Part shown: positions 24,918-57,817 of the stretch, one piece after another
Layout of the letters: every line of letters begins with the position of its first letter
How positions within the stretch are numbered: the first letter of the stretch is position 1
Assembly: GCA_002898575.1 (NCBI GenBank)
Contig: BEHT01000010.1
Location: 1 to 64,000 of the forward strand
From: a bacterium HR17
GTDB lineage: Bacteria > Armatimonadota > Fervidibacteria > Fervidibacterales > Fervidibacteraceae
Direction: 5' to 3'
Length of the DNA: 64,000 nt
Made by a program: the position numbers and the translations under genes
The notes under the pieces: model-generated
What the model was told of the DNA's origin: nothing
Databases searched by the model: none
The model's input: only the letters and a program-made list of their open reading frames with translations

Positions 24918-24963
24918 AGCGGGGTGCGCTGTGTCCTAACGAACGGGCGCAAAATTGATGCCG

Positions 24964-24987
24964 GACGCTTTCGCTGCAAAAAGCGTC
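24964..24987 (+). terminator. Hairpin after znuA
   Basis: An 8-bp stem GACGCTTT/AAAGCGTC with an 8-nt loop lies 46 nt after the znuA stop. No U-tract follows, so it may be a weak terminator or processing site that lowers expression of the ATPase and permease relative to the binding protein. Confidence 0.4.
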
Positions 24988-25038
24988 GGCTAAAGGCGCC
25001 TACAATTTGCGCCGTTTCGGCGACGGAGGCATTTTGCG

Positions 25039-25167
25039 ATGGCGGAGTTGGCGCAGCGGCTTAAGCGCATCCCGATGAGCCGCAAAGAGTTTGAGAAGGG
25101 GTGTCTGACCCATAACGGAAAGGAGCAACGACGATGGGCAAGGCGTTGGTCAGCCTGCAATCGGTGA
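25039..25167 (+). CDS. Small basic ORF (42 aa) between znuA and znuC, candidate
   Basis: A frame beginning MAELAQRLKRIPMSRKEFEK has GGAGG at 25024-25028, 10 nt before its ATG, and a TACAAT box at 25000-25005. It overlaps the first 34 bp of znuC in another frame. The start region looks real, but the tail coincides with znuC. It may be a leader peptide whose translation leads into znuC. No known family. Confidence 0.35.
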   Translation: MAELAQRLKRIPMSRKEFEKGCLTHNGKEQRRWARRWSACNR

Positions 25168-25889
25168 CGCTGGGTTACGGGCGCAAAGTCGTGTTGCGGG
25201 AAGTGACGATGCGATTGGGACAAGGTGAGTTTTGGGGGTTCGTCGGTCCAAACGGGTCGGGCAAGACGACGCTGGTGCGGGCGCTGCTAAGGTTGCTCCG
25301 ACCGCAAAGTGGGCAAATCGTTTGGCATCAACCGGTGCGCATCGGCTATGTTCCTCAACGGGAAGCGTTAGACGATTTGTTGCCGTTGACTGCGTTGGAC
25401 ATCGTGCTGATGGGGCGCATCCGTAAAGGTGGTTTCCTGCATCGTTTTACCGTCACTGACCGCCAAAAAGCCCTGCAAGTGATGGAACAAGTCGGCATCG
25501 CTGCGTTAGCCCCACTGCCTTACCGCGACCTTTCCGGTGGCCAAAAGCAGCGGGTGCTGATTGCCCGTGCTTTAGCGACCGAACCTGATGTCTTGCTCTT
25601 GGACGAACCGACTAACGGGCTGGACCTACCGACAGAACACGCCATCATGGCGCTGTTGCGCCGCATCCACGCGGAACGAGGTGTCACGGTCGTGTTAGTG
25701 ACGCACCTACTGAGTTTAGCGGCGAACGCAGCGACCCATTTGGCGTTGTTCCGCGAGGGGCAGGTCATCGCAGGTCCTGCCCCTGAACTGCTCACCGAGC
25801 GGCGGCTGAGCGCCACCTACCAAGCGCCCATCGTCGTCCACGAGGTCAACGGTTACCGCATCGTGTTGATGGGGGCGGGACAACAGTGA
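25134..25889 (+). CDS. znuC: Metal ABC transporter ATP-binding protein (ZnuC-like)
   Basis: 251 residues with Walker A GPNGSGKTTL, a Q-loop (VPQREALDDLLPLT), signature LSGGQKQR, Walker B VLLLDEPTNGLDLP and the switch His in LVTHLL. It energises the adjacent permease. GGAAAGGAG lies 7 nt before the ATG. Its stop overlaps the start of the permease gene (TGATG). Confidence 0.95.
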   Translation: MGKALVSLQSVTLGYGRKVVLREVTMRLGQGEFWGFVGPNGSGKTTLVRALLRLLRPQSGQIVWHQPVRIGYVPQREALDDLLPLTALDIVLMGRIRKGGFLHRFTVTDRQKALQVMEQVGIAALAPLPYRDLSGGQKQRVLIARALATEPDVLLLDEPTNGLDLPTEHAIMALLRRIHAERGVTVVLVTHLLSLAANAATHLALFREGQVIAGPAPELLTERRLSATYQAPIVVHEVNGYRIVLMGAGQQ

Positions 25890-26746
25890 TGGAACTGCTG
25901 CGGCACGACTTTTTGCGCCATGCGTTGGCGGCGGCAGTTGTGGCGGGGTTATCCCTCTCCTACTTGGGTGTTTATGTCGTGCTGCGACGCATCGTGTTCG
26001 TCGGTGCCGCGCTGGCGCAACTGGGCGCAGCAGGGGTCGGGCTAGCGCTTCTGTTGGAACAGTCGCCACTGGTATGGGGCAGTTTAACGGTGTTAGCGGG
26101 CGTTTTGGGGTTTGCCCTGTTGCCACCGCAGGAGCGGCAAGTGTCCCGCGAAAGTCTGTTGGGCGCCGTCTACGCGTTGGCGTCAGCCCTTGCCCTGTTG
26201 TTCGTCGCCCGAAGCCCTGTCGGCGAAGCCCACATGGTTAGCCTGCTCTTCGGCGATTTGCTGGCAGTAGGGCACGGCGATATGGAGTTGTTGGCGGGCG
26301 CTTGCTTTGCTGTCTTGGCGTTACATTTGGTCGGTTACCATGCGTTCGTCGCAGTCACAGTAGACCCTGCCTTTTCCCACGCTGTCGGTGTGCGGGAACG
26401 AGTGACTAACTTGCTGTTTTACTTGAGTTTGGGTGTGTTAGTTGGAGCATGTATTCGCGCCATCGGTGCTTTAGTTGTGTTTGCCTTCTTGGTGTTGCCG
26501 CCGATCGCAGGGCTGCTCTGGGCGCGCCGATGGCGGCAGGCGTTCACGCTGGCTGCTGTCACCGCAGTGTTGGCGGCGGTTGGAGGGTTGTGGCTCTCGT
26601 TTCACTACGACTTACCCGCTGGTCCCTCCGTCGTGGCGTTGTGCGGGGCGTTGACGGCGTTAGCGGCTTGGGCAAAATGGGTCGTCCAACGGCTCAGCGC
26701 CAGACCGACATTGTCCACCGAGAAAACTTTGCGCCAATCTTTGTGA
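25889..26746 (+). CDS. znuB: Metal ABC transporter permease (ZnuB-like)
   Basis: 285 residues and about eight membrane helices of the ABC-3 family. Typical segments are VVLRRIVFVGAALAQLGAAG near the N terminus and AIGALVVFAFLVLPPIAGLL near the C terminus. ATG 25889 overlaps the znuC stop. It completes a znuACB-type importer for zinc or manganese. No Fur/Zur-like box was recognised in the region before znuA. Confidence 0.93.
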   Translation: MELLRHDFLRHALAAAVVAGLSLSYLGVYVVLRRIVFVGAALAQLGAAGVGLALLLEQSPLVWGSLTVLAGVLGFALLPPQERQVSRESLLGAVYALASALALLFVARSPVGEAHMVSLLFGDLLAVGHGDMELLAGACFAVLALHLVGYHAFVAVTVDPAFSHAVGVRERVTNLLFYLSLGVLVGACIRAIGALVVFAFLVLPPIAGLLWARRWRQAFTLAAVTAVLAAVGGLWLSFHYDLPAGPSVVALCGALTALAAWAKWVVQRLSARPTLSTEKTLRQSL

Positions 26747-26778
26747 TGGTGCACAGTTCGCTCAAGGAGGGATGGGCA

Positions 26779-27429
26779 ATGGCGGTAAAGTGCCCGCACT
26801 GCGGTACAGAAAACTTGGACGGCGCACTGTTTTGTGATGAATGTGGGGCGTCATTGGCGGAAGCGCCTGCGTCTCAGCAGGGCGCAGGGACCGCTGGACA
26901 AGGGACTGTTGACCAACGACCCTCAATCCCCCCGCCTTCTGCACCTGCTGGAGGGGGAACTGTTCAATGCCCCACATGCCACCATGAGAACCCCGCGGAC
27001 GCCCGATTCTGTGAAAACTGTGGGGGAACCCTCACTGCTGCCAGTGTGCCGCCCCCCGAGGCTGTTGGCGCTGCGCCTGGGGCGCCCGCACCGGCTGTGC
27101 CGGTGGCAACGCTTGTTATCGCTGATTCAAACGCCGAGTTACCGTTGGATTTGAGCAAGGGGGAAGCGTTGATCGGGCGCGCCGATCCAGTGAGTCGCGT
27201 TTACCCTGATGTGGATTTGACCCCGCATGGAGGCTACGAGGCGGGTGTGTCGCGCCGCCACTGTCGCATCTTTCGTCAAGGTGACCAATTTTTTGTGGAA
27301 GATTTAGGGAGCACCAACGGAACGAAAGTCAACGGGCAACCGCTGCCGCCCAATCAGCCCCGGGCGTTGTCTGACGGCGATGTTTTGGAACTCGGTTTGC
27401 TGCGGTTGACTTTCAGGGTGAACGCTTAG
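26779..27429 (+). CDS. Double zinc-ribbon / FHA domain protein
   Basis: 216 residues. Two treble zinc ribbons (CPHCGTENLDGALFCDECG near the start and CPTCHHENPADARFCENCG near residue 70) are joined by Pro/Ala-rich linkers to a C-terminal FHA domain (~125-215; GRADPVSRVYPDVDL, VSRRHCRI, DLGSTNGTKVNG). FHA domains bind phosphothreonine; the core Arg, Ser-Arg-Arg-His and Asn are present. AAGGAGG sits 8 nt before ATG 26779. It is the first of three FHA genes in a row. Confidence 0.9.
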   Translation: MAVKCPHCGTENLDGALFCDECGASLAEAPASQQGAGTAGQGTVDQRPSIPPPSAPAGGGTVQCPTCHHENPADARFCENCGGTLTAASVPPPEAVGAAPGAPAPAVPVATLVIADSNAELPLDLSKGEALIGRADPVSRVYPDVDLTPHGGYEAGVSRRHCRIFRQGDQFFVEDLGSTNGTKVNGQPLPPNQPRALSDGDVLELGLLRLTFRVNA

Positions 27430-27453
27430 GGAGGTTGACAGGGGAGTATGAGC

Positions 27454-27876
27454 ATGTTGAACTGGCTCCGTCGGCGCAAGGAGGCGGGAGAACCTAATCC
27501 TGAGGCAGTGCCGTCGCTGACAGGTCCGATAGCTTTGCTACCTGAGCCCCCTCAAACGGGTGACTACCTGATGTTCACGGATACAGATGGGCGGGCTTTA
27601 TATGCCCCGCTGGACCGACCGACGCTGGTGTTGGGCAGTGACCCGCAATGCGACATCGTGCTGGACGCGCGGCTGCCGGGAGCGGGGCGAACGGCGCCCC
27701 ACCACGCGCGGATAGAACGCTGGCATAACCGCTGGGTGCTGGTGCCGTTAAGCTTAGACGCACCCGTCTTCGTCAACGGTAAACGGGCAGGGGAAACCGT
27801 GTTAAAGGATGGGATGACAATCCAGTTGGGGCACGACGGGGTGTGTTGCACTGTCCACATTCGCCCGTCGGAGTGA
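27454..27876 (+). CDS. FHA domain protein
   Basis: About 140 residues. After a short basic N terminus (MLNWLRRRK) comes a divergent FHA domain: VLGSDPQCDIVLDARLPG, APHHARIERWHNRWVLVPLS, and VFVNGKRAGETVLKDGMTIQLG. The usual SxxH is APHHARI, so phosphothreonine binding may be altered. AGGGGAG spacing fits ATG 27454 better than ATG 27448. It is in one operon with the FHA genes before and after it. Confidence 0.85.
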   Translation: MLNWLRRRKEAGEPNPEAVPSLTGPIALLPEPPQTGDYLMFTDTDGRALYAPLDRPTLVLGSDPQCDIVLDARLPGAGRTAPHHARIERWHNRWVLVPLSLDAPVFVNGKRAGETVLKDGMTIQLGHDGVCCTVHIRPSE

Positions 27877-27883
27877 GGGAACG

Positions 27884-28930
27884 ATGCAGCGCCTATCCGG
27901 TCGCGCTTTGGCGCGCGCTGTGTTCGGTGCTATCGGTGGGTTTACGGCGTGGGTGATCGTAGAACCCTTCACTACCGATGTCACATCGGTGCAAGAGTTG
28001 TTCCATGCGTCTGAGGGTCAACCGCCTGTCCCGTTATGGGCGCTTGTGGGGGCATTGATCGGTGTCGCCATTGTCGGTCTGGACGAATGGTTCTGGGGAG
28101 GGCGCAAGAAAGCAGGGCGCGATGCCCTCCTCGCAGGGGTTCTGGGGATGTTGGGAGGTGCGTTAGCCTTCGCCGTGGGAGGGTGGGTGTTTAACGCTTT
28201 CGCCGCGTTGGTGCTGGGCGCTCCGGAAGGTAGCCTCGCTCAACGGCTTTGGCTGATTGTTGCCCGTAGCATCACATGGACCTTGGTCGGCGCTGTTATC
28301 GGTTTCGCGTTGGGTGCTGTCCGACGGTCATGGCGGGGTGCTTATCACGCCGGTTTCGGTGGTGCTCTGGGCGGATGCATCGGTGGTATTTTGTTTGATA
28401 CCATTGCCCCTTTGTTGGGCGCTACTTTAACTTTGGGTTTGGCGGAGCCGGGCTGGGGAAGCCGCCTGATCGGGTTGACCACGATGGGCGCGTTAATTGG
28501 GCTGTTCGGCGCCCTCGCTGAACAGTGGTTCGCACCTGCCATTTTGAAAGTGGTGTCGTCAGGGCGCATGGAAGGGCGCGAATTTGTCGTGGACAAACCG
28601 ATGATATGGATCGGGCGTGACGAACGGTGCGATGTCGCCCTCTACTATGACCGTCAGGTGCAAATGCGCCACGCTGTTTTGCGGTGGGACGGCGTCGGCT
28701 ATGTGATCGCCCCTGAAAACGGCGGGCACATTGCGGTCAACGATGTCCCCGTGCAGCGCCGGCGGTTGGAAGACGGCGATGTGATCACTGTAGGGCAAAC
28801 GCGTCTCTTGTTTCGCAGCCGCCTCCCGACGCCTGCCGCTACAGATCTGGCGAGAAAACTGTGTTCACACTGCGGCGCGTTGAACCGCGCGACAGCGAAA
28901 TTCTGCTATCGGTGTGGAACCGGTCTGTAG
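27884..28930 (+). CDS. Membrane FHA domain protein with C-terminal zinc ribbon
   Basis: 348 residues. Several glycine-rich transmembrane helices fill ~8-220 (ALVGALIGVAIVGL, LLAGVLGMLGGALAFAVGGW). A cytosolic FHA domain follows (~230-310; MIWIGRDERCDVALYYD, QMRHAVLRW). The C terminus is a zinc ribbon (CSHCGALNRATAKFCYRCG). Only 7 bp separate it from the preceding FHA gene. The three genes look like a membrane-tethered phosphopeptide-recognition set; no Ser/Thr kinase is in the window. Confidence 0.87.
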   Translation: MQRLSGRALARAVFGAIGGFTAWVIVEPFTTDVTSVQELFHASEGQPPVPLWALVGALIGVAIVGLDEWFWGGRKKAGRDALLAGVLGMLGGALAFAVGGWVFNAFAALVLGAPEGSLAQRLWLIVARSITWTLVGAVIGFALGAVRRSWRGAYHAGFGGALGGCIGGILFDTIAPLLGATLTLGLAEPGWGSRLIGLTTMGALIGLFGALAEQWFAPAILKVVSSGRMEGREFVVDKPMIWIGRDERCDVALYYDRQVQMRHAVLRWDGVGYVIAPENGGHIAVNDVPVQRRRLEDGDVITVGQTRLLFRSRLPTPAATDLARKLCSHCGALNRATAKFCYRCGTGL

Positions 28931-28945
28931 TGGTTGTTGTGGTTG

Positions 28946-30070
28946 TTACGGTTGAGGCGTCAACAGGACGATCACGGTATCTTTGCCGTCGCTGGTCGGG
29001 GCGATCAAAGCGATGGGTTGCTTGCCGATAGGTGTTTTCCCCTCTTGTTGAACGCGTCGGTCACCTAACTTGCCATTTAGCGTAAGGACGATGCCTGCAG
29101 TATCGGAGCGTGACCGCAATGTCACTTCCACGCTGTCGGTTTTCACCGTGAGGGTGTCTTGAACGGCAGGGCGCCATTGGGTCTCTACGACCCGATGGGC
29201 GCACGGGTAGCCTAAAGTTTGTAGGAGCGTCAGTCGGTCTCTCGGCAACTGTTCCTGCGCGGCGCAAGCGGTCGCGTGGGCACGAAACACTTCAACGCGG
29301 AAAGTGATGGCGGACAGCGGAGATTGTGATTGCGACGGTGCAGCGGTTGGCTTGTCCAATGTGGCGATGAGGTCGCGCAACCGCGATTGTTGGACACCGC
29401 TGGTTGCCAAACTGGGTGCGGACGCAATGAGGATGTCACCCATCCCGACAAATTGCCCGTCAGGGAGAATACCAGAGCGGTTCAGTATTTGTGCGACCTC
29501 GTCCGCTGACCGATGTCGCAGTTGAAAAACCTGCACGCCAGGCTGTAGAAGCGGGTTCTGCCATACTTGCGGTGTTCCGAAGGTAACAACAGGGTCCACC
29601 ACAATCGTCGTCCCCGCCCGGTTGAAGGCAGTTGCGCGATCGGAAAGGGGCGTCGTTTGGTCTATCGCCGTCCCCGGACCGACCAGCGTTGTGCCTGCAC
29701 GCCCGAAAGCCGTCGCGCGGTCAGCGAAAGGCGCCGTGCGGTCTATGAACATGCGCGACGGAAAGCGGAACGGTTGCCCGATGATAACAACGCCCGTTTG
29801 CAGTGGTTCGCACCAAAGGAGCGACAGATTGCCCGTTGCGAATTGGACGCAGAAGAACGGTGCCGGCGTCACCAAAAGGGGTGTCGTCACGAAAGTGCCT
29901 CCGATAACGGGCGCCGTGACAGCGGGAAAACCGCCCCAAAATACCGCAGAGCCGACGAGAGGGCGAACAACAGAGGGCGTGACAATGACGACGCACCGAT
30001 TGCGGTCATGGTCGGCAAGCGCCAACGAGGTCGTCAAGACAGCGGCAGCGCAAACGCTTAGCAAGCGCAT
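28946..30070 (-). CDS. Exported protein with a secretin N-domain-like segment
   Basis: 374 residues with a signal peptide (LLSVCAAAVLTTSLALA). The middle has two near-identical low-complexity stretches (DRTAPFADRATAFGRAGTT and DQTTPLSDRATAFNRAGTT). Residues ~180-240 (VFQLRHRSADEVAQILNRSG, ending DLIATLDKP) match the shape of the secretin/STN N-domain. No secretin pore domain follows. It is last in the minus-strand envelope set. A role in assembly of an envelope structure is inferred. Confidence 0.72.
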   Translation of the reverse strand: MRLLSVCAAAVLTTSLALADHDRNRCVVIVTPSVVRPLVGSAVFWGGFPAVTAPVIGGTFVTTPLLVTPAPFFCVQFATGNLSLLWCEPLQTGVVIIGQPFRFPSRMFIDRTAPFADRATAFGRAGTTLVGPGTAIDQTTPLSDRATAFNRAGTTIVVDPVVTFGTPQVWQNPLLQPGVQVFQLRHRSADEVAQILNRSGILPDGQFVGMGDILIASAPSLATSGVQQSRLRDLIATLDKPTAAPSQSQSPLSAITFRVEVFRAHATACAAQEQLPRDRLTLLQTLGYPCAHRVVETQWRPAVQDTLTVKTDSVEVTLRSRSDTAGIVLTLNGKLGDRRVQQEGKTPIGKQPIALIAPTSDGKDTVIVLLTPQP

Positions 30071-30138
30071 GACGGCGACACCCCCACAGGCGGGATTTTT
30101 GAACCACTCCCCTTGCCACCGCCACCATCATTTTGACG

Positions 30139-30155
30139 CATCAACGCGGTTGATG
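30139..30155 (-). terminator. Hairpin after the TadG-like gene
   Basis: A perfect 7-bp inverted repeat CATCAAC/GTTGATG with a 3-nt loop lies in the 133-bp gap between the TadG-like gene and the secretin-N-like gene. No U-tract follows, so its effect on read-through is uncertain. Confidence 0.35.
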
Positions 30156-30203
30156 AGTGGGAAGGACAGCGCTCACCTAAACAGGCAGTGCGGAGCACCG
30201 TCA

Positions 30204-31478
30204 TCAGTTTTCCAGCGCCAACCCTTGCGCACCGCTGTCAGCGGCGGGCGGTTCTTGGGCGGTCAGGGCGACAACAGCGTTGCCGGACAGTTCCATACGC
30301 CACGCCACGACCATACTCTGTTGAAACATCCCGCTGCCCTCTAAGTGAACGACACCTCGCGGTAAATAGACAGCGCCTTGCAGTTGAAAGCTGGCGTTAC
30401 CAGACAGCCACAACGGGCTAATGTTCGTTGCCGGTTGGAAAACGGTGATGCCAGCGAAAGGTCCGTCGGTCGGCGGCGATAACTGTAACGCACCGTTACC
30501 TTGCACCTCAATCTGCCCGCTCTCGTTGAAAAGTGTCACGCCACTACCAACCAACTGAGCGTTGCCGGAAACTAACAATCCGCTGCGTAAGATGTAAACG
30601 CCAGGCTGCAATGTGACAAAGGCGTTACCTTCCAGACGAATCGGTCCAGTGTAAATGCCGGGCGAAAGGGTTGCTATGCCGTTGATGGTTCTGCCCGTGA
30701 AAACAGGTAGGCTGCTAGGGTTCGGCGGCTGCAACGACGATAACGGGTCAGGCGTTGGCGACTGCCCGACTGCAGGCGTTGGAACCAGCATGGCATTGCC
30801 TTCACGACGGTAATTGCCGGTTACTTGAATTTGTTGAGCGGTCAAAACAGCGTTGCCTTGCGCGAAAAGTGCGTCGGGTGCGGAAGAGTTCACATGCACG
30901 CTGCCGTTGGCAACTGTAAGAGCGGCGTTACCCTGCAACTGCAAGGCGCGTCCTCCACCGTTGTCCAAAATGATGACCCCGCGCGGGAAAACTGACCCGC
31001 TTTTGCGCGCTGTTGATTCCGCGCAAACGCGGCGCGCAACGGTTCCGAGAAGCGGTGCAAAATAGAGCCGCACTTGCCGGCAGGCACGAACATGAATGCG
31101 GTTGGGCGAGGGGGCAGCGTTGTCAGGCGCGTAAGGGGTCGTCACTTGCACTTCGTCGGCACCGATGCGGTAGCAAAGCGTCGTCGGCGACACGGGGTCC
31201 GTGCAAACGATCGGCTGAGGCGTCGGGGGTGTGGGGAGATTGAAGTTATCGGCATAGTTACGGGCGTAGGCTGTGAGGGCACTTTGACGGGCTTGGGCAA
31301 GGTTCGGCAAGTCTTGTGCCCCTGCCAGTGCCGCTGCGTCTACGAAGTTTTGCAGTTGATGCTTTGTGAAGGTCAAAAATCCCCAATCAATCACCCACGC
31401 CGCAACTATCAGCAGCACGAAGAGAGTAGCAGCCACGAAGATCAGCGTCATGCCACGACGACGGGCGTTATCGCGCAT
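30204..31478 (-). CDS. TadG-like exported protein with repeated GNA motifs
   Basis: 424 residues. The N terminus (RRGMTLIFVAATLFVLLIVAAWVIDW, a long transmembrane segment) and KHQLQNFVDAAALAGAQDL fit the TadE/TadG pseudopilin-like family, normally of Flp/Tad pili. From ~170 onward at least eight short strand repeats recur (LQGNAALTV, AQGNAVLTA, EGNAFVTL, SGNAQLVG, VQGNGALQL, SGNASFQL, SGNAVVAL), suggesting a beta-helix. No tadA/B/C genes are present. It lies 87 bp after the giant exported protein. Confidence 0.75.
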   Translation of the reverse strand: MRDNARRRGMTLIFVAATLFVLLIVAAWVIDWGFLTFTKHQLQNFVDAAALAGAQDLPNLAQARQSALTAYARNYADNFNLPTPPTPQPIVCTDPVSPTTLCYRIGADEVQVTTPYAPDNAAPSPNRIHVRACRQVRLYFAPLLGTVARRVCAESTARKSGSVFPRGVIILDNGGGRALQLQGNAALTVANGSVHVNSSAPDALFAQGNAVLTAQQIQVTGNYRREGNAMLVPTPAVGQSPTPDPLSSLQPPNPSSLPVFTGRTINGIATLSPGIYTGPIRLEGNAFVTLQPGVYILRSGLLVSGNAQLVGSGVTLFNESGQIEVQGNGALQLSPPTDGPFAGITVFQPATNISPLWLSGNASFQLQGAVYLPRGVVHLEGSGMFQQSMVVAWRMELSGNAVVALTAQEPPAADSGAQGLALEN

Positions 31479-31565
31479 GGCAGCGAACCCCCTACAGAGC
31501 CGTCACAGGGAATATCGGCAGCCCGTCGCCGTGCGTAAAGAGGGCGTCGCCAACGATCTGGGGCT

Positions 31566-34500
31566 TTACCAGCGTTGGCTTAGGCTGAGGCTGGCTAACC
31601 AGCGATCGTTGACGAAATGGGGGCGCACAAGGGTTGGGTTGTCCAACCAACGGAGGCTAAAAGTGATGAACTGAGCATCGCTAATGCGGTGGGAGTAACT
31701 CAAGCCCAGCAGCGTCGTTGACGCCGTGCGCGTCGCCGTTTCGTCGCGCAAACGCGCCCACTCTAACCGCCATTGAGATGTTTTTGCCGGCGTGATTTCC
31801 AAGGCGAACCGCCAATCATGCGTAATGGGGAGATTGGGCACGCCGATTTGCTCTTGCCAATCACCGACCAAACGCAACTGCGGCGACAGCCGCAAGGTCA
31901 GAGTGGCGCGGTGGGTCTTGTAAGGCGCTAACTGTTGGCGCACTAAAGTGATTTGGGGCGCTAACGCCAAGCCTCCTGGTGCCCGCATCCAGTCAGACTG
32001 GTAAGCCTGTTGGCTCGCCCAATCAGGCGGCATGTTGGTTTGATTGGCAACGACCAATTGGGAGCCATGGCGGTCCAACGGCAAGGTCAATGCAAATTCG
32101 CGCATGGGCAATTCGCCGGCTTGGTCGCGGAAGGTTGCGCCCCCCCACACCAATTTGCCTTTGCCCAACGGCACGACGGCACGCCAGACAGGCACCGCCT
32201 CATCGCTGCCGTCCCACCGTTCCAACTTCCAATAGCCCAGTCGCAGCGCCAACGGGCGGGTCTTGGTCGCTGGCAGTTCAAAATAGAAGCGGTGGTCGCT
32301 GGCTCCTTTTTCACCGCCGACCGCTTGACCGACCTGTGCGCCCAAATGCCATTCGCTCCCTTTCGCCACAACGACCCAGACGGTGCGGTAAAGGTCAGCT
32401 TGAGGCGTGATGATGGAGGCAGGAGGGGTGCCGGCTTGAACGACGGGTTGAGAGGTCGCTTGCGCTGCTTGGGCTAACTGTTGTGCCGTTTGCTGTCGCT
32501 GCGTGGGGTCTAACAGGCTGAGACGCCAATAGCCGATGCGCCAGTTCAGCCCGTTTTGATCGTTACTGGGCAGTTCCAACACGACCTTCTCTTCGCCACC
32601 GTCGCGGTCGTCGCTGCGTTGGAGGCGCGCCCACTGCGCGGTCAAGCACAAACGGTTGGGCACTTGCCATTGCCACACTAACCGCCACCCTTGCACATCA
32701 GGTGCCGTCGGTTGATTGATGGTGAAGCGGGATAACTGCCACAAATGCGCGGGACGCTTAGCGCCACCTGTTTTTACCGTCACTTCGGTTTGGGTGTGTT
32801 CGGACAAGGGTTGTTCGGTCGTGGTCAACTGCGCTGTGATAGAGAAATCAGAGCGGGGTTGGTAGACGAGAGCGTGTTGGCGGGTCTCTACACTGCCGTT
32901 ACCCTGCGGCACTTTGGTCAGTTGCGAGGTCAAGCGCCACGCATCAGAAAAGCGCCAGCCAAGCCGCGCGTTGAGGGTCTCTTTACGGGGTTGGTTTGTT
33001 TCTTCCTTCGTGACCCGTTCTACAAAAAGGTGCAAGGGGGCTTTTTCCGGTGTCTGGATGACAGTGCGAGCATAGCGGTAATCGCGTTCCACACCGCCCT
33101 GCTGGGTCTCACTGAAGTGCCGTTGCAACACGAAGTTTAACCCGCCCAGCAACGGCAAAGTCTGGGCAGTATCCCAGCGCAGATGGCGCTCCGTCACCGG
33201 TTGTGCACCCTGCCCTTTGGGCAACAAGGTCCATCCGCCAAAGGCGAGGGTCGTAGGAGGTAGATTGCTTTTGCCGGCTGGTTTGAAGGTCAGCACGGTT
33301 TCATGCGCGGTGCGCTGTTGGTAGGGTTGAGGGGCGTCAGGTAAGGCGTCAGCGTCGCTGCGGGTGTGGGTCAGCGTTAAAGTCGGTGACAGATGAAAGG
33401 CGAACCGATCGCGCGTTTCACGCCAACCGATGCGGTTTGCTATATCGGTCAACCCCAGCGCTTTAAGTTGCTCGGTGCTTAGCGAGGGCGTGGCTTCATC
33501 CTGCGTGCGTTCCCATGCGACTTTACCGTCGGCGAGATGAAGGGCGTATGTCGTTCGTTCCAACGCTGTGCCGGCGCGCTCATGGCGCGTGCGGTTGAAC
33601 AACAAACGGTCTTTGGGCGTGATTTGCCAAGTGAGTTGCTGCCACATGGATGTCCAACCCAACCGCGTTTTCACCTGTTCCCAGCCGATGGCTTTGAGGA
33701 ATTGCTCATTGACGCCCTCGGATAACCGCTCGCGGCGCTCTTCCCACTGCAAACGCCCTCCAAGGACGCTCAATTGTGTGCCTTCCCGCTCCAACACCGT
33801 TTGGTTGTTCTGGTATCGGTAACGGGTTAAGGCTAACTGGTCTTTGGGGCTGAGTTGCCACCGTAACTCGCGGTCGCGATATGACCAACCGATTTTGGGC
33901 AAATCTTTCTCCAAACCGACGGCTTTCAGGAAATTGGGGTCCACCTGGGCGGTGTTCTCTGTGCGCTCGCGGAAGGTCAGCCGTCCACTTAACAGGCTCA
34001 AGGCTGTTGTGTTGCGGACGATGTCTGTCGTTCCGTTGCTCAGTCGGAACTCTTCCCTGCGGAACGCATCTTTGGGCGAAAACTGCAGCGCCAATAACTC
34101 ACGGCTGGATTGCCAACCGATGCGTGGGATGAACGCAGCCAGCCCTAACGCCTTCAACGCTTCGGGGTTGGTGCCGCGAGCGATAGCGTCGTTTTGCCGC
34201 TGCCAGATGAGCCGTCCACCGCCGAGATCAACCCCGAAACTGCGCTGTCGGATATTGCCGCCGGTGCCTTGGATGTCCAACCGCTCCATCTGGGCGGTGA
34301 CACCCTTGTTGGTGTAACTGGCTTGGAAGCGCTGGCGGTCTAAAACCCGCCACAGTTGCCAATTGCCCAGTTGCACGGGTGTTGCGTTGTTGTTTTCGGT
34401 GAGGGCGCGGCTAACGATTTGTTGCTGGGCTGCTCCGGCTGGTGCCGGCAATTTTTCCGCGTTATCGGCGCGCACGCGGTCCCAACGCAGCGTCCAACGA

Positions 34501-35252
34501 GCGTTCCCCAGACTCACAGCGCGGGTCTCCACGACGCCGCCGCGCTGTCCCGTCGTCGTGTTCGCAAAGGCGCGGACATTGGTTTCTTTGTTCGGTTTCC
34601 ATTCCACTTCAGCTTGACGCGCCGTCACCCCTGCGACAGCGTTCAACGGCATTTGCAACCCAGTTTCGGCGGCAAGTTTCTGAGCAAAATCGGGCGACGC
34701 AGGGCGAAAGTTAGGGTCAGCCTCGGCGTAGTGTAAGGTCGCCCGAAAGCGCCCGTCGTGGCTTTGGTAGCCCACACTCTGGTGGCGAAACGCCCCTTGC
34801 CAGAGGACCAGCGACGCGACGCTATCGGTCTGGAACGCTGACGGCGACCGTAACCGATTGGCGGGCGCGGAGCGCAGCAGTGGTGTCAGCGCATCTTGGG
34901 GCGTGCCAGCAGAGGGAAATGTAGTGGGTATCACAGCACCGCTCTGCAGCACGGTGGACTGTATGTGAAATTCGCCGAGGGACAATCGGGCGCCCCCACC
35001 CACCAACATCCAACCCACCTGCGACTTGGGCTGTTGTAACGATTGACGCGGCGGCGGCGCGTAGTCACGAAACAGGCTTAAAGACAGCGACCGGGCAAAA
35101 GGTAACGATACAGAAACGCTTTGAGCACTTAAATCGGCTGTCGGTCGTGCCGTCAAGTCGTGGGGTGTTTTTTCTTGGTCAGTGCACCAGGAAGGGACGG
35201 CTGCCATTGTCGCGGCGACGATGGCGATGACAAGTAGCCTTGTCATAGGCAT
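31566..35252 (-). CDS. Giant exported repeat protein, probable outer-membrane beta-barrel
   Basis: 1228 residues. The signal peptide (LLVIAIVAATMAAVP) is followed by a long region of alternating aromatic/polar strands, and the protein ends LSLSQRW; a C-terminal aromatic is typical of barrel proteins. Four repeats of about 77 residues start near 366, 442, 519 and 596. Each opens with a LKA(L/V/I)G...(I/L)GW segment and then a strand ending in (S/T)PKD in the first three. The family is not recognised. GGAGGAGGT is ~12 nt upstream. It follows the zf-HC2 gene by 50 bp. The surface-exposed role is inferred. Confidence 0.8.
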   Translation of the reverse strand: MPMTRLLVIAIVAATMAAVPSWCTDQEKTPHDLTARPTADLSAQSVSVSLPFARSLSLSLFRDYAPPPRQSLQQPKSQVGWMLVGGGARLSLGEFHIQSTVLQSGAVIPTTFPSAGTPQDALTPLLRSAPANRLRSPSAFQTDSVASLVLWQGAFRHQSVGYQSHDGRFRATLHYAEADPNFRPASPDFAQKLAAETGLQMPLNAVAGVTARQAEVEWKPNKETNVRAFANTTTGQRGGVVETRAVSLGNARWTLRWDRVRADNAEKLPAPAGAAQQQIVSRALTENNNATPVQLGNWQLWRVLDRQRFQASYTNKGVTAQMERLDIQGTGGNIRQRSFGVDLGGGRLIWQRQNDAIARGTNPEALKALGLAAFIPRIGWQSSRELLALQFSPKDAFRREEFRLSNGTTDIVRNTTALSLLSGRLTFRERTENTAQVDPNFLKAVGLEKDLPKIGWSYRDRELRWQLSPKDQLALTRYRYQNNQTVLEREGTQLSVLGGRLQWEERRERLSEGVNEQFLKAIGWEQVKTRLGWTSMWQQLTWQITPKDRLLFNRTRHERAGTALERTTYALHLADGKVAWERTQDEATPSLSTEQLKALGLTDIANRIGWRETRDRFAFHLSPTLTLTHTRSDADALPDAPQPYQQRTAHETVLTFKPAGKSNLPPTTLAFGGWTLLPKGQGAQPVTERHLRWDTAQTLPLLGGLNFVLQRHFSETQQGGVERDYRYARTVIQTPEKAPLHLFVERVTKEETNQPRKETLNARLGWRFSDAWRLTSQLTKVPQGNGSVETRQHALVYQPRSDFSITAQLTTTEQPLSEHTQTEVTVKTGGAKRPAHLWQLSRFTINQPTAPDVQGWRLVWQWQVPNRLCLTAQWARLQRSDDRDGGEEKVVLELPSNDQNGLNWRIGYWRLSLLDPTQRQQTAQQLAQAAQATSQPVVQAGTPPASIITPQADLYRTVWVVVAKGSEWHLGAQVGQAVGGEKGASDHRFYFELPATKTRPLALRLGYWKLERWDGSDEAVPVWRAVVPLGKGKLVWGGATFRDQAGELPMREFALTLPLDRHGSQLVVANQTNMPPDWASQQAYQSDWMRAPGGLALAPQITLVRQQLAPYKTHRATLTLRLSPQLRLVGDWQEQIGVPNLPITHDWRFALEITPAKTSQWRLEWARLRDETATRTASTTLLGLSYSHRISDAQFITFSLRWLDNPTLVRPHFVNDRWLASLSLSQRW

Positions 35253-35302
35253 GGCAGTCCGTCACCTCCTCCATTCAGTCCTGCCCACTATTGTATCACG
35301 CA

Positions 35303-36667
35303 TCACCAAGAAACGCCCAACCCTGTCAGGGGCACGACCGCCGTGCGACTGCGGTATCGTTCGGCTGCCATCGGAATAGACATTGTGGACGACAAAACGG
35401 GGTTCTCAGGCGGCACCGACGGGCGCTTGTCGTCGTCAACTTTCAAAAACGCCACGCCCGAGCGCTGGTAAAGCCGTTGGGAGGGCGGTAGAGCGCTCAA
35501 CCGCACCCGCGGCGGCGCCAATGGGATATCCCGTTGGATGGTCACTGCCGGCAAAACCGTCAGTTGCCGTTGAGGCGCTGCGGGGGTGGCGAGGTGAGGC
35601 GATGTCTGCGGGGCAGCCACTTGTGGAACCGCTGTTACCAACTGTGACATCGTGTCGGTTGAGGAAATCGGTGGCACGGTCAGAACTGGGCGCTCCACTT
35701 GGGAAGAAGGTGGTGGCGTCGCAGACGGCGTTTGATTTTGCGGGGTTTGTGGAGACGGTTCCAAATGCGTCGCCTCGGTAGGTCGGAACGCCCCTTCAGG
35801 CTGCGGCAGGGATGTTGCGATGCGGTCGGACGGTTGCGTCTCTGCTTTCGGAGCGGCAACTACAATCCGCCATGGTGGCTGTTTGCCCGCTGCTCGTCGT
35901 AATCGCCGGGGTGCGATTGCCGGCTGGGGAGGCGTTGGACGAGTCGCCAACATCGTGCGGAGCGGACGCGGTGCAACCGGGTGCGGTCGCTGACGCAATG
36001 TCCCCGGTTGGGTGGTATTGCCTCTCGGCAGTGTCGGTTTGACCGTGTGGGGCGGTGGTTGTGTCTGGTGCAAAGTTGGTGCGCGGACGATTGTCCTTGC
36101 CCTCGGTGAACCGGGTTGCAGCGTTGCGCGTAACCAAAGCCCTCCCAGCCCCAATGCCAACGCAGCGGCAGCCGGAATGAGGTAACGCCAGAGCGTCCAC
36201 GCCGGTCGGGAGACTGTAGCGCGGAGTCGCCATTTGAGGGCTTCGCGGTCTTCGGCAGGGGCATGGACAGGAGGCAGTTGGGCTAACAACGCCAATGTGC
36301 GTCCCGAAGCCCACAAAACGGATTGACAGGCATCACATTCCGCTACATGGGCGATAAAACTGTAACGGTCCACTGTGCTGAGGTCACCGTCCAGCCACTG
36401 CCAAAGGGCGCGCCGCGCCGTTGCACAATCCCACTCGGCGACGGTGTAACGCGGGAGGGCTCGCAGATCTGCCAACAACCCTGCCTTTGCCGAAGGCGGT
36501 GGGGTGACGGCGGGGAGATGTGCCAGTGCCGAGCGCAATTTTTCCCATTGCTGCCAGCGGTGAGCGCAAGCAGGGCATTGGCGCAAGTGCCCGTGCAATC
36601 GGCGCAACTCTTCGTCTGTCAACCAATCGGCACATACCATGTGGCGGCGAGCCCAGCCGCAAGCCAC
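35303..36667 (-). CDS. Membrane protein with two zf-HC2 anti-sigma-type zinc fingers
   Basis: 454 residues. Two zf-HC2 modules occupy the cytosolic N terminus (VCADWL with HGHLRQCPAC, and DCATARRALWQWLDG with FIAHVAECDAC), each with the full Cys/His/Cys/Cys set. A transmembrane helix (~165-185; LIPAAAALALGLGGLWL) leads to a long Pro/Thr/Gln-rich outside region. This is the layout of zinc-binding anti-sigma factors, but no sigma factor gene adjoins it. The start is GTG 36667, with GGAGGT 8 nt upstream. It heads the minus-strand envelope gene set. Confidence 0.82.
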   Translation of the reverse strand: MACGWARRHMVCADWLTDEELRRLHGHLRQCPACAHRWQQWEKLRSALAHLPAVTPPPSAKAGLLADLRALPRYTVAEWDCATARRALWQWLDGDLSTVDRYSFIAHVAECDACQSVLWASGRTLALLAQLPPVHAPAEDREALKWRLRATVSRPAWTLWRYLIPAAAALALGLGGLWLRATLQPGSPRARTIVRAPTLHQTQPPPHTVKPTLPRGNTTQPGTLRQRPHPVAPRPLRTMLATRPTPPQPAIAPRRLRRAAGKQPPWRIVVAAPKAETQPSDRIATSLPQPEGAFRPTEATHLEPSPQTPQNQTPSATPPPSSQVERPVLTVPPISSTDTMSQLVTAVPQVAAPQTSPHLATPAAPQRQLTVLPAVTIQRDIPLAPPRVRLSALPPSQRLYQRSGVAFLKVDDDKRPSVPPENPVLSSTMSIPMAAERYRSRTAVVPLTGLGVSW

Positions 36668-36740
36668 GCAAGGACACCTCCAAACAGTAAAAGCACCGTC
36701 AATTGTTTGGACACATGGCGTTGAGCAAAGTTACGCTTAA

Positions 36741-37208
36741 TTACTGGACTGGGTTAGCGCGGTTGGATTTGGTCTGTAGCACGCTTTGCCACTGGGCGCT
36801 GGTCTCTTCTGGGGCAGGAACGAGTCGCCCCCACGCGCGGGCGTAAACGATATTGCCGTCGTTGATTTCGCTGGCGACTTCCCAGACATTGCGGCGCTGC
36901 CGCACGACCCAACCGATGATATTGACGGTTGTGCCAGGGCTAAGCGGCTTATTGTAGCGGACGGTTAATTCGCCGGAGACGGCAAGTTGTTTTGAGACGG
37001 CGTAGACCGCCCACACCATCGCTTCGTCCAACAAAGCCGCTAAGATACCGCCGTGAACGGTATCGGGGTAACCGACATGCTTTTCGGTTGGCGTGAAGGT
37101 GGCGCGGACGATGCCGTCCTCGGCGGCTCTGAAACGCACCCCCAACCGCCCTAAGCGGGGTTCACCGCACACGAAACAAAGCCGGTAGTAAGGCAACGGT
37201 TGCTCCAT
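36741..37208 (-). CDS. PaaI-type hotdog thioesterase
   Basis: A 155-residue acyl-CoA thioesterase-like hotdog protein. The helix with the catalytic segment is TVHGGILAALLDEAMVWA. The N terminus has CFVCGEP, as in a subset of these proteins. GGAGG lies 8 nt before ATG 37208; the ATG at 37313 lacks a ribosome site and would run into the tuf promoter. The substrate is unknown. Confidence 0.88.
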   Translation of the reverse strand: MEQPLPYYRLCFVCGEPRLGRLGVRFRAAEDGIVRATFTPTEKHVGYPDTVHGGILAALLDEAMVWAVYAVSKQLAVSGELTVRYNKPLSPGTTVNIIGWVVRQRRNVWEVASEINDGNIVYARAWGRLVPAPEETSAQWQSVLQTKSNRANPVQ

Positions 37209-37268
37209 CACTGCCACCTCCAATTCACCAAAGGATAACGCTGCCAACCGCCGGGATTTAGGTAGACC

Positions 37269-37297
37269 TTGACGCTTGAGATGCGCCTCGTTATAAT
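37269..37297 (+). promoter_or_regulatory. Sigma-70 promoter of tuf
   Basis: TTGACG (37269-37274) and TATAAT (37292-37297) are separated by exactly 17 nt, 83 bp upstream of the tuf start. It is the closest match to consensus that I found in the window, as expected for a highly expressed translation factor. The thioesterase gene diverges from it. Confidence 0.85.
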
Positions 37298-37380
37298 GCC
37301 ACTCGCCGCCCACAAAGTTTGTCGGCGTGGCACAGTGTTTTGGAACGGCAATTCATCTTAGCAAGGAGGAGTGAGTCGGT

Positions 37381-38604
37381 ATGGCGAAGACGAAATTTGA
37401 GCGGGTAAAACCCCACGTCAACATCGGCACGATCGGGCACGTTGACCACGGAAAAACAACGCTCACCAGCGCCATCACTTTGGTGCTCTCTAAACACACT
37501 GACCCCAATACAGGGCGCCCTTTAGCACAGCACCTGCGCTATGAGGACATTGACAAGGCGCCAGAAGAGAAGGCGCGGGGCGTAACGATCAACATCGCCC
37601 ATGTGGAATTTGAGTCGCCCAAACGACACTACGCCCACATTGACTGCCCCGGTCACGCCGACTACATCAAAAACATGATCACCGGCGCCGCTCAAATGGA
37701 TGGGGCGATCTTAGTCGTCAGCGCTCCGGACGGTCCGATGCCCCAGACCCGCGAACACGTTCTATTGGCGCGGCAAGTCGGCGTTCCGGCAATCGTCGTC
37801 TTCATCAACAAGACGGACATGATGGATGACCCTGAACTGATTGACCTTGTGGAACTGGAAGTGCGGGAATTGCTCAGCAAATACGAGTTCCCCGGCGACG
37901 AAGTGCCTGTCATTCGCGGCAGCGCGCTCAAGGTTTTGGAATGCGGCTGCGGACAACGCGATTGCCAATGGTGCGGCGCTATTTGGCAACTGGTTGAAGC
38001 GGTAGACGAATATGTCCCCCTCCCTCAGCGCCCTGCCGACCAACCGTTCCTGATGCCGGTGGAAGATGTTTTCAGCATTCCTGGACGCGGGACAGTTGTA
38101 ACAGGGCGTGTGGAACGCGGCGTCCTGCGCCCCGGCGAAGAAGTGGAAATCGTCGGCTTCTCTCCGGAACCGCGCCGAACGGTCGTGACCTCGGTGGAGA
38201 TGTTCCGCAAACTGTTGGACGAAGCCCAGCCTGGCGACAATGTGGGCTTGCTATTGCGGGGTGTGGACAAGCGAGAGGTGCGGCGCGGGCATGTGATCGC
38301 TAAACCTGGCTCCATTAAACCGCACACAAAGTTCCGCGCCCAAGTGTATGTCTTGAGCAAGGAAGAAGGTGGTCGCCATACGCCGTTCACCTCTGGTTAC
38401 CGCCCGCAGTTTTACTTCCGCACGACCGATGTCACAGGTGTGATTACCCTGCCGCCTGACATTCAGATGGTGATGCCCGGTGACAACGTGGAATTTGATG
38501 TGGAGTTGATTTATCCTGTAGCGCTGGAAGAGGGCTTGCGCTTCGCTATTCGTGAGGGGGGGCGCACTGTCGGCGCCGGCATCATCACGAAAGTTCACGA
38601 TTAA
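37381..38604 (+). CDS. tuf: Elongation factor Tu
   Basis: A 407-residue GTPase delivering aminoacyl-tRNA to the ribosome. G1 is [10 protein letters not shown]3 is DCPGHADY, and G4 is NKTD (usually NKCD). Domains 2 and 3 are complete and the protein ends [10 protein letters not shown]. Residues 188-198, in the G-domain just before IWQLVEAVD, hold an insertion with four cysteines in a C-x-C-x4-C-x2-C pattern, which could bind zinc. AGGAGGAG lies upstream. tuf is not next to fusA or the ribosomal protein operons here. Confidence 0.97.
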
Positions 38605-38630
38605 CAAAGGCCACTGCTTGACGCAAGTGC

Positions 38631-38677
38631 CCCGGCGTAAAGTGCAAAGGCGTTACCCCGCTGCGCTTTACGCCGGG
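38631..38677 (+). terminator. Long hairpin between tuf and nagB
   Basis: A 15-bp stem with one G-U pair (CCCGGCGTAAAGTGC and GCGCTTTACGCCGGG) surrounds a 17-nt loop, in the 104-bp gap. It is too strong to be chance. There is no U-tract, so it may be a Rho-assisted terminator or an mRNA 3'-end stabiliser for tuf. Confidence 0.65.
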
Positions 38678-38708
38678 CATCCCTTCATCGCTAGGGGGCT
38701 TGATAGCT

Positions 38709-39503
38709 ATGGAGGTCATCATCCTCCCAGATGCGGAAAGCGTAGGCAAGGAGGCAGCCTCTCAAATTGCGGCGCTTATTCGCCGTAAACCCAACGCCGT
38801 TCTGGGCTTAGCGACCGGCTCCACGCCTATCCCTTGCTACCGCGAGTTAATTCGTCTACACAAAGAGGAGGGCTTGGACTTTTCCCATGTGACGACCTTC
38901 AACTTGGACGAATACTATCCGATTGACCCCCGCCACCCCACAAGTTACCGCTACTTTATGGACGAGCACCTGTTCAACCACATCAACATTGATAAATCCC
39001 GCACGTTCATCCCTTACGGACTGACCCCCGACCCCTTTGAACACTGCCGATGGTACGAGGAGCAAATCAAAGCCGTCGGCGGGATTGACCTGCAAATCTT
39101 GGGCATCGGGCACAACGGGCACATCGCTTTCAACGAACCAGGCTCGTCGTTGGCGTCGCGCACCCGTGTCAAAACGCTGACGCCTGAGACCATTCAAGCC
39201 AATGCCCGTTTTTTTGACCGCATAGAGGATGTCCCCCGCTACGCCATTACGATGGGCATCGGCACGATTTTGGAAGCCCGCAAGATCATTCTGCTGGCAA
39301 CCGGCGAAAATAAGGCTGATGCGGTCGCGAGGGCTATTGAAGGACCCGTGACAAGCATGTGTCCTGCTTCCGCCTTGCAATTGCATCCCCGTGTCACTTT
39401 CCTGCTGGACGAAGCCGCAGCGTCTAAGTTGCAGCGTAAAGACTACTACCGCTATGTCCACGAGATGGCGGAAGCCTTAAAAAAACAGGTCTTGGGGCGT
39501 TGA
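38709..39503 (+). CDS. nagB: Glucosamine-6-phosphate deaminase
   Basis: A 264-residue enzyme converting glucosamine 6-phosphate to fructose 6-phosphate and ammonia. Motifs are LGLATGSTPIPCYREL (phosphate loop), TFNLDEYYP (catalytic Asp), ILGIGHNGHIAFNEPG, and ATGENKADAVARAIEGPV. The length matches NagB. AGGGGG spacing supports ATG 38709 rather than TTG 38700. Confidence 0.96.
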   Translation: MEVIILPDAESVGKEAASQIAALIRRKPNAVLGLATGSTPIPCYRELIRLHKEEGLDFSHVTTFNLDEYYPIDPRHPTSYRYFMDEHLFNHINIDKSRTFIPYGLTPDPFEHCRWYEEQIKAVGGIDLQILGIGHNGHIAFNEPGSSLASRTRVKTLTPETIQANARFFDRIEDVPRYAITMGIGTILEARKIILLATGENKADAVARAIEGPVTSMCPASALQLHPRVTFLLDEAAASKLQRKDYYRYVHEMAEALKKQVLGR

Positions 39504-39539
39504 AAAAACTATTTGGGACGATTGCGGGGCGAAGGAAGG

Positions 39540-40679
39540 ATGGGCACCGCTTACACGCCGGGCTTGACCATCAGCGCGGACACGGTGGTGCGCAAGGTCC
39601 GTCGCTTGCCGTTAAAAGGGTCGGTGCTGGTGTCCGTCGGGGACTTCGTGACGCCAGAGCAGGTGATCGCCCGCACAGAATTGCCCGGTCCAGTCACGAC
39701 CGTGCGGGTCGCTGACCAATTGGGCATAGAACCGAAAGAAGTGCCCCGCTTTTTAACCAAGCGAGTCGGTGACTTCGTGCAGGCGGGTGAAGCCCTCGCT
39801 GAACGCAAGAGCCTTTGGGGGCTGCTGACGGTGCGCGCGACAGCGCCGATCACGGGCACCATTGAATTTGTTTCGCCGACGACAGGTAACATCGGTATCC
39901 GCCATTTACCTCAACCCGTGGAAGTAACGGCTTACTTGCGCGGCGTCGTCACCGAAGTGTTGCCCGAAGAGGGCGCGGTCGTCGCAACGCGGGGCACTTT
40001 CGTTCAAGGCATTTTCGGGTTGGGCGGAGAACGACATGGTCTCTTAGCCCTCCTCGCCGATGCACCCGATGAGTGCGTGGCGGAGAGTAAAGTCAGCGAC
40101 GAACATCGGGGTAAAATTCTCGTCGCCGGTCAACACGCCCATTGGCGGTTGCTGGAAGCCGCCCAGCAGGTTGGCGCTTTCGCCGTCATCGCCGGCAGCG
40201 TCCTAGACACAGACATCAAACGGTTGCTCGGTTACGAAATCGGCGTCGCCATCACAGGGCATGAACCCTTACCTTTCACGCTGGTCATCACGGAAGGGTT
40301 TGGGCAAGTCCCGATGGCGCGCAAAACTTTTGAGTTGCTCGCGGCGCAAGCGGGGAAACTGGCATCGGTCAACGGGGCGACCCAAATCCGAGCGGGCGTC
40401 ATCCGCCCCGAAGTCATCGTCCCGCACGACATCGTTACCTTAGATAGTGTGCGAGAGCCTGAACGCGAACCGTTGCAAGCGGGTGAATTGCGTATCGGCA
40501 CACCCGTCCGCATCATCCGGGCGCCGTATTTTGGGGCATTGGGGCGGGTCACCGCATTGCCACCAGAACCGCAGGAAATTGAGACCGAGACAAAAACGCG
40601 CGTGCTGGAAGTTGAACTGCTTACGGGCGAACGCCTTGTCATCCCCCGCGCCAATGTGGAAATTTTTCCCCACGCCTAA
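39540..40679 (+). CDS. Barrel-sandwich-hybrid protein of unknown role
   Basis: 379 residues. The N-terminal ~110 residues contain two lipoyl/RnfC-like barrel-sandwich parts (KGSVLVSVGDFVTPEQVIART, FVQAGEALAERKSL, APITGTIEFVSPTTGNIGI). The centre is an alpha/beta domain (HRGKILVAGQHAHWRLLEAA, AFAVIAGSVLDTDIKRLLGYE). The C terminus (~310-370; VRIIRAPYFGALGRVTALP) looks like a KOW/SH3-type strand set. I know no function. GAAGG lies 4 nt before ATG 39540. It is 36 bp after nagB, probably in the same operon. Confidence 0.75.
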   Translation: MGTAYTPGLTISADTVVRKVRRLPLKGSVLVSVGDFVTPEQVIARTELPGPVTTVRVADQLGIEPKEVPRFLTKRVGDFVQAGEALAERKSLWGLLTVRATAPITGTIEFVSPTTGNIGIRHLPQPVEVTAYLRGVVTEVLPEEGAVVATRGTFVQGIFGLGGERHGLLALLADAPDECVAESKVSDEHRGKILVAGQHAHWRLLEAAQQVGAFAVIAGSVLDTDIKRLLGYEIGVAITGHEPLPFTLVITEGFGQVPMARKTFELLAAQAGKLASVNGATQIRAGVIRPEVIVPHDIVTLDSVREPEREPLQAGELRIGTPVRIIRAPYFGALGRVTALPPEPQEIETETKTRVLEVELLTGERLVIPRANVEIFPHA

Positions 40680-40704
40680 CTTGCCGCCGCTTAGCCGCAA
40701 AACC

Positions 40705-57560: not shown

Positions 57561-57817
57561 TCGCTGCTCCTTTTCAGCATTCTCTTAGAGGGCGCGTCTT
57601 TTGACGCGCCGCTTTTTTGGCGGCTCAGGAGAGCCGCCCTCCGAACGAACTTTCAACATTCGGAGGGCGCGTCTCCTGACGCGCCGACTTTGCGGCGGCT
57701 CAGAGAGCCGCCCTCCGAACGAACTTTCAGCACCTCGGAGGGCGCGTCTCCTGACGCGCCGACTTTGCGGCGGCTCAGAGAGCCGCCCTCCGAACGAACC
57801 TCGTTATTCAACACAGC
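57561..57817. repeat. Palindromic repeat array, copy 2 (3 units)
   Basis: Three units with a 75-bp period (GAGGGCGCG begins at 57588, 57663 and 57738), reverse-complemented relative to copy 1. Each pairs GGCGCGTC/GACGCGCC and GGCGGCTC/GAGCCGCC. The left edge (CTCCTTTTCAGC) and right edge (CGAACCTCG then TTATTCAACACA) are shared with copy 3. It lies between the convergent ends of the toroid gene and coxG. Confidence 0.93.

Follow-up and report, generated by a model that had tools for sequence, protein, structure and literature searches.

A zf-HC2 protein and a predicted giant outer-membrane beta-barrel form an undescribed two-gene envelope module in Armatimonadota

Gene layout of the locus

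The window analysed here is a stretch of 64,000 nucleotides (contig BEHT01000010.1, positions 1 to 64,000) of an Armatimonadota assembly of 3.15 Mb in 75 contigs (GCA_002898575.1; G000). ORF inspection places four minus-strand genes at 28946-36667, separated by 50, 87 and 133 bp, and signal peptides or transmembrane (TM) segments are seen in all four products. The preliminary description of this DNA, which reported four consecutive genes for exported or membrane proteins with these gaps, is borne out by the ORFs, by Pfam and by the signal and TM segments. The genes and their features are as follows.

36741..37313, minus strand: 4HBT hotdog thioesterase gene, 73 bp upstream of the zf-HC2 gene (Pfam 4HBT, 1.4e-10; synteny with G003)
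36677..36681, minus strand: GGAGG, Shine-Dalgarno sequence of the zf-HC2 gene, 9 nt upstream of its GTG start (from sequence)
35303..36667, minus strand: zf-HC2 connector gene, 454 aa, GTG start
36323..36661, minus strand: paired zf-HC2 (anti-sigma-type) region of the connector, residues 3-115, predicted cytoplasmic (Pfam; invariant Cys/His in alignment A2)
36125..36181, minus strand: predicted TM helix of the connector, residues 163-181 (hydropathy)
35306..35341, minus strand: conserved C-terminal tail of the connector, last 12 residues AVVPLTGLGVSW (tail conservation and controls)
35264..35270, minus strand: Shine-Dalgarno AGGAGGT of the barrel gene, before the ATG (from sequence)
31566..35252, minus strand: giant barrel-like gene, 1228 aa, ATG start
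30204..31478, minus strand: TadG-like gene, 424 aa, loosely linked neighbour (Pfam; unlinked in G002, G001 and G004)
28946..30070, minus strand: Secretin_N-like gene, 374 aa, loosely linked neighbour (partial Pfam match; unlinked in G002 and G004)

Within 24000-42000, ORF inspection finds no ECF sigma gene next to the zf-HC2/barrel pair and, as had been noted before, no gene for an ATPase, a platform or a secretin pore. A promoter and terminator scan returned no more sites than expected by chance. The 424-aa protein, previously called pseudopilin- or TadG-like, matches Pfam Tad/Tad_C (2.4e-10 and 4.7e-6) at its N-terminus and justifies the name to that extent; its C-terminus is a repetitive GNA, beta-helix-like repeat, and nothing in the data suggests that it works with the barrel. 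The 374-aa protein is exported, lacks a pore domain and shows a sub-threshold, partial match to Pfam Secretin_N (1.2e-4, 22 of 69 positions), in agreement with its earlier label as secretin-N-like. Both neighbours resemble Tad and type II secretion systems in carrying short domains of these systems, but the locus differs from them in lacking the ATPase, platform and secretin pore. A search for tad ATPase and secretin genes elsewhere in the genome, which the preliminary description had proposed, yields four secretins, all on contigs other than that of the window, together with a TadE-TadE-TadG-like gene set on another contig (L063) and a GspF/PilC-like ORF assigned by sequence only (L164).

Several further features of the window were observed. 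An EF-Tu gene (37381-38604) carries a cysteine cluster in the G domain, perhaps a zinc-binding insert, and three consecutive plus-strand FHA-domain genes (26449-28930), two of them with zinc ribbons, converge on the Secretin_N-like gene. GC-rich units of 75-78 bp are repeated in tandem at 1-472 and 57588-57799 (6.1 and 2.8 copies), and their consensus units are apparently mutual reverse complements, suggesting a dispersed repeat family.

Gene order among close relatives

In G003, which belongs to another genus of the same family, the order is 4HBT, zf-HC2, barrel, TadG-like, TadG-like and Secretin_N-like, split over two contigs, each of which breaks off within the barrel gene; the 4HBT and EF-Tu neighbourhood of the window is kept. 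In G002, of the same genus, the zf-HC2 gene adjoins the barrel gene, next to which comes a tgt-like gene; the TadG-like and Secretin_N-like genes are each found singly on other contigs. This assembly is 63% complete, and the contig spanning the downstream side of the barrel gene is intact. In G004, of the same order, the zf-HC2 and barrel genes are again adjacent, with the TadG-like and Secretin_N-like genes on other contigs. Since the order is broken in G002 and G004, the zf-HC2 and barrel genes form the core, and the other two are loosely linked. The gene order, whose conservation the preliminary description had asked to test, therefore recurs in G003, where the TadG-like gene is duplicated, and is not kept in G002 or G004; the claim of an undescribed envelope system survives for the pair and not for the four-gene set, which was downgraded as a single machine.

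The giant barrel-like protein

Neither Pfam nor NCBIfam has a model that matches the 1228-aa protein, and no TonB-receptor plug, STN or SprA-type Pfam domain was found in five other members of the family, which ranges from 900 to 1250 residues. Sequence searches of solved structures in the PDB with the barrel and Secretin_N-like profiles gave nothing useful, and SprA was not matched. The window protein begins with a signal peptide and ends in LSLSQRW; the last residue is W in families f1 and f2, as in the connector, and F in 27 of 40 sampled barrels.

The AlphaFold2 model of the family member from G232 (40 sequences; mean pLDDT 84, pTM 0.52) contains about 48 membrane-type strands, preceded by a small N-terminal beta domain, and its first half is made of four-strand repeats joined by short helices. 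The model of the window protein, built for its mature form from 37 sequences (pLDDT 69, pTM 0.48), contains 53 strands, and its first 122 residues are unreliable. The predicted strands are about 11-12 residues long and follow one another in an uninterrupted meander. Foldseek matches include LptD, SprA, TonB receptors, ushers and SlpA, and apoB100 too, all with low TM-scores (below 0.3 against known outer-membrane (OM) barrels), which therefore support the OM-barrel class and no specific fold. Large-hydrophobic residues alternate in the barrel as in Omp85, unlike in soluble controls; this evidence is moderate, because the alternation is seen only with the large-hydrophobic scale, and a per-strand dyad-repeat test of the predicted strands on the water-octanol scale was not significant. 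A signal peptide, amphipathic beta strands, a C-terminal aromatic residue and an OM-type fold are thus all present by prediction, supporting the large protein as a predicted OM beta-barrel, a class to which the earlier term barrel-like had pointed and which the structure prediction strengthens.

With pTM at only about 0.5, the strands may or may not close into one barrel. The protein could instead form two barrels, combine a barrel with a sheet in the periplasm, or be a lipid-binding beta belt. The pTM values of both models, the low TM-scores to OM barrels and the strong Foldseek match to the apoB100 beta belt, which for the G232 member outranks every other match, are consistent with such an architecture, whereas the signal peptide, the OMP-like C-terminus, the unbroken meander of short strands and the Omp85-like alternation argue for one barrel, so that these arrangements together appear unlikely, though with an appreciable chance of being right.

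The zf-HC2 connector protein

The 454-aa connector matches Pfam zf-HC2 above the cut-off (6.8e-11) in two stretches. Matches to NCBIfam anti-sigma models fall below the cut-off, and by its sequence the domain resembles the anti-sigma kind; the earlier term anti-sigma-like thus suits the domain, though the window pair has no sigma gene beside it. The same plan is shared by barrel-adjacent homologues: one or more zf-HC2 fingers, a single TM helix, a disordered-looking periplasmic linker and a conserved tail. Proline, alanine and charged residues are abundant in the linkers that follow the TM helix. In the window connector the linker is Pro-rich and about 273 aa long, within the range of 273-304 residues found in f1 and f2, of the order of the window; outside f1 and f2 it is 165-210 residues in nearly all connectors and 251 in f9, the G081 value being discounted for a mis-set TM call.

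The last ten residues of the tail follow the motif phi-x-phi-x-phi-phi-x-x-[RS]-F, with hydrophobic residues at -10, -8, -6 and -5, R or S at -2 and F or W at -1; the last residue is W in f1 and f2 and mostly F elsewhere. The information content is 4.75 bits at the last residue, a value inflated by the selection of the sequences for an aromatic last residue, 1-2.2 bits at -2, -4 to -6, -8, -10 and -12, and mostly 0.2-0.5 bits further inside. A terminal aromatic residue is found in 25 of 30 barrel-adjacent zf-HC2 proteins versus 2 of 24 non-adjacent ones from the same genomes (Fisher p=4e-8, for related sequences that are not independent). The exceptions include the f32 connectors, which have no tail, and two f33 connectors that end in K. 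The hydrophobic register of the tail (-1, -5, -6, -8, -10) is unlike the classical OMP beta-signal and also unlike the ends of the sampled barrels themselves.

One of the two non-adjacent aromatic-ended proteins is an unpaired second protein of connector design (G038:C45 33574-34779; L202:4575-5780), with the tail VMVELIQTRF, no adjacent barrel gene and an unrelated exported protein encoded downstream.

Distribution of the pair across Armatimonadota

A zf-HC2 gene lies directly upstream of the barrel gene in 14 sampled families (f1, f2, f5, f7, f9, f12, f18, f24, f32, f33, f34, f38, f39 and f40), mostly with gaps of 0-141 bp. Neighbouring genes were called by a simple longest-ORF script, which may mis-set starts and pick the wrong strand in GC-rich DNA (L122, L202), and in the wider pair loci systematic scoring was confined to upstream genes. 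No adjacent zf-HC2 gene is found in any sampled f13 genome or in G055 of f27; the f13 barrels imply that the barrel can work without a connector.

A profile of five f1/f2 barrels found weak relatives in four distant genomes, and in two of these (G232 and G234) a zf-HC2 gene is directly upstream. By hand count, A6, a profile built from three distant barrels, has matches in 169 genomes at E<=1e-30, and A7, a broad profile in which the window protein is included, reaches 177 of 291 genomes in 19 families at E<=1e-50, A7 having been trained on some of the genomes in which it was counted. The window-type and distant-type profiles align at 95% in hhalign (E=3e-8, 258 columns), a score that strand-rich repeats could inflate. 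A phylum-wide count from A6 (254 of 291) was rejected as inflated by matches at about 1e-9 to a second large protein that shares only the N-terminal domain; such matches, left out of the counts, occur in G000, G001, G003, G004 and G035. A search of named genomes with barrel patterns matched only Armatimonadetes SKYB58, the patterns being too specific to test other phyla.

The second large protein of G000 (C1 85516-88455; L164:3517-6456) is exported, 979 aa long and ends in F. A beta domain of the G-x-DY-x-IDY type occurs in it twice and is also present in G001, G003, G004 and G035, and we take the protein to resemble the N-terminal domains of SprA-like proteins.

Most families sampled have no sigma gene beside the pair, and only f18 has one nearby; a sigma match at L148 belongs to a locus without a zf-HC2 pair. 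In f18, an ECF sigma gene stands divergently beside the pair (L205:2107-4150 in G249; L126 in G238), and in G249 it is followed by a gene for a small zf-HC2 protein of its own and then by one for another exported protein. A cognate ECF sigma factor for the connector, suggested by f18, is weakened as a candidate, since the sigma factor there has its own small zf-HC2 partner.

The pair was found described nowhere in the open-access literature searched, Pfam, NCBIfam or the PDB; the zf-HC2 and giant barrel genes are an undescribed two-gene envelope module.

Comparison with known systems

The pair resembles FecR/FecA-type cell-surface signalling systems, including FoxR/FoxA, in its gene arrangement: next to the gene for an OM barrel lies one for an anti-sigma-type protein of the inner membrane whose C-terminal part is periplasmic. 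In these systems the anti-sigma protein touches the OM barrel in the periplasm, and in FoxR/FoxA this contact protects the anti-sigma protein from proteolysis (PMC11637429); by analogy, the pair may work in a similar way. However, the window barrel has no TonB-receptor domains, plug or STN domain, the pair has no partner sigma gene and carries zf-HC2 instead of FecR domains, and the connector tail is a short strand rather than a folded domain. Lacking both receptor domains and sigma gene, the pair is not a member of this group. The connector is also similar to zf-HC2 anti-sigma factors (RsrA, ChrR and the SigE/RseA-type families), with its Cys/His-bearing zinc finger, single TM helix and sub-threshold NCBIfam matches, but its periplasmic part is much longer and ends in an aromatic tail, and its gene is fixed to a barrel gene, with no linked sigma gene.

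Among large barrels, SprA, the translocon of the type IX secretion system (T9SS), is likewise a very large single-chain OM barrel and a Foldseek match; with 36 strands, it was called the largest such barrel in 2020 (PMC7463736). The window barrel differs in being half as long, in its 48-53 predicted strands and in a TM-score of 0.2, and neither the SprA Pfam domain (PF14349) nor a PDB sequence match to SprA was found to place it in the T9SS. LptD, with 26 strands (PMC9581022), is matched by Foldseek through its strand meander, but the barrel has no OstA/LptD Pfam match and a TM-score below 0.3.

Proposed mechanism and alternatives

We tentatively favour, at somewhat below an even chance, a connector that crosses the periplasm with its tail docked at the barrel, its folding machinery or the outer membrane and couples their state to the cytoplasm. 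The observed basis is the pairing, the domain order, the near-constant linker length within lineages, the tail conservation and the barrel-type structure prediction; what we infer is that the tail docks to this particular barrel, that the pair signals and that its target is a sigma factor. The downstream gene would provide a very large OM beta-barrel, and the upstream gene an inner-membrane protein with paired zf-HC2 fingers in the cytoplasm, whose long flexible linker would span the periplasm and whose C-terminal aromatic strand would dock on the barrel or on the barrel-folding machinery. Docking would keep the connector, together with any partner bound by its zinc fingers, in a single state; if the barrel were missing, unfolded or occupied by a signal, docking would be lost, the tail would be exposed and the cytoplasmic output would change. 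Against this reading stand the non-classical register of the tail, the tailless f32 connector and the two K-ended f33 members, the f13 barrels without an adjacent zf-HC2 gene, the window pair without an adjacent sigma gene, and the pTM of only about 0.5 for the barrel models. With a linker across the periplasm as the likeliest arrangement, the connector may signal, tether or do both. It is doubtful, though conceivable, that the module takes its most specific form, a single-chain OM barrel that has about 48-53 strands, more than the 36 of SprA, and that is physically connected to a zinc-finger regulator in the cytoplasm through a linker across the periplasm, the terminal strand of which plugs into the barrel, independently of TonB and STN domains.

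Connectors of the TolA, OmpM and SlpA types join or space the membranes, each in its own way. The connector studied here might similarly only anchor the barrel to the inner membrane or set its distance, with the zinc finger as a leftover or structural cap that passes no signal. A linker of near-constant length with a conserved tail would suit a ruler, and most sampled families lack a sigma gene beside the pair; however, the Cys/His residues are kept across families, often in two fingers, for which a purely structural anchor would have no use, and f13 does without a connector, leaving a purely mechanical role rather unlikely.

DegS reads OMP ends, and the tail could in a comparable manner mimic the C-terminus of an unfolded OMP, to be read by BAM or a PDZ protease and so to report on OM assembly in general, the barrel gene being adjacent only as that of a main client. 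The terminal F or W, as in OMPs, on a zf-HC2 anti-sigma-like protein would agree with such a stress sensor, as would the matching W of connector and barrel in f1 and f2 and the prevalence of F on both proteins elsewhere. The conservation of the tail nevertheless extends over 10-12 residues, beyond what a PDZ ligand needs, and its register is unlike that of the barrels' own ends, which makes a sensor of this kind improbable.

A four- or five-gene envelope machine, in which the TadG-like and Secretin_N-like proteins would work together with the pair, is very improbable, for although the whole order occurs in G000 and, allowing for the contig break and the duplicated TadG-like gene, in G003, and a TadG-like relative is present in all five genomes of the order, these genes are unlinked in G002, of the same genus, and in G004, and no such neighbours were noted among the mainly upstream genes scored in the wider pair loci.

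Implications for the Armatimonadota envelope

The Armatimonadota are poorly studied bacteria. They have Omp85, which is also encoded by the host genome of the window, and therefore presumably possess an outer membrane. The occurrence of the giant barrel in many families, usually with a dedicated inner-membrane connector, points to a core envelope function for which no annotated family offers a counterpart. A closed barrel would be larger than any single-chain outer-membrane barrel known so far, and if the tail docks, the pair would represent a new route by which the state of the outer membrane is passed to the cytoplasm.
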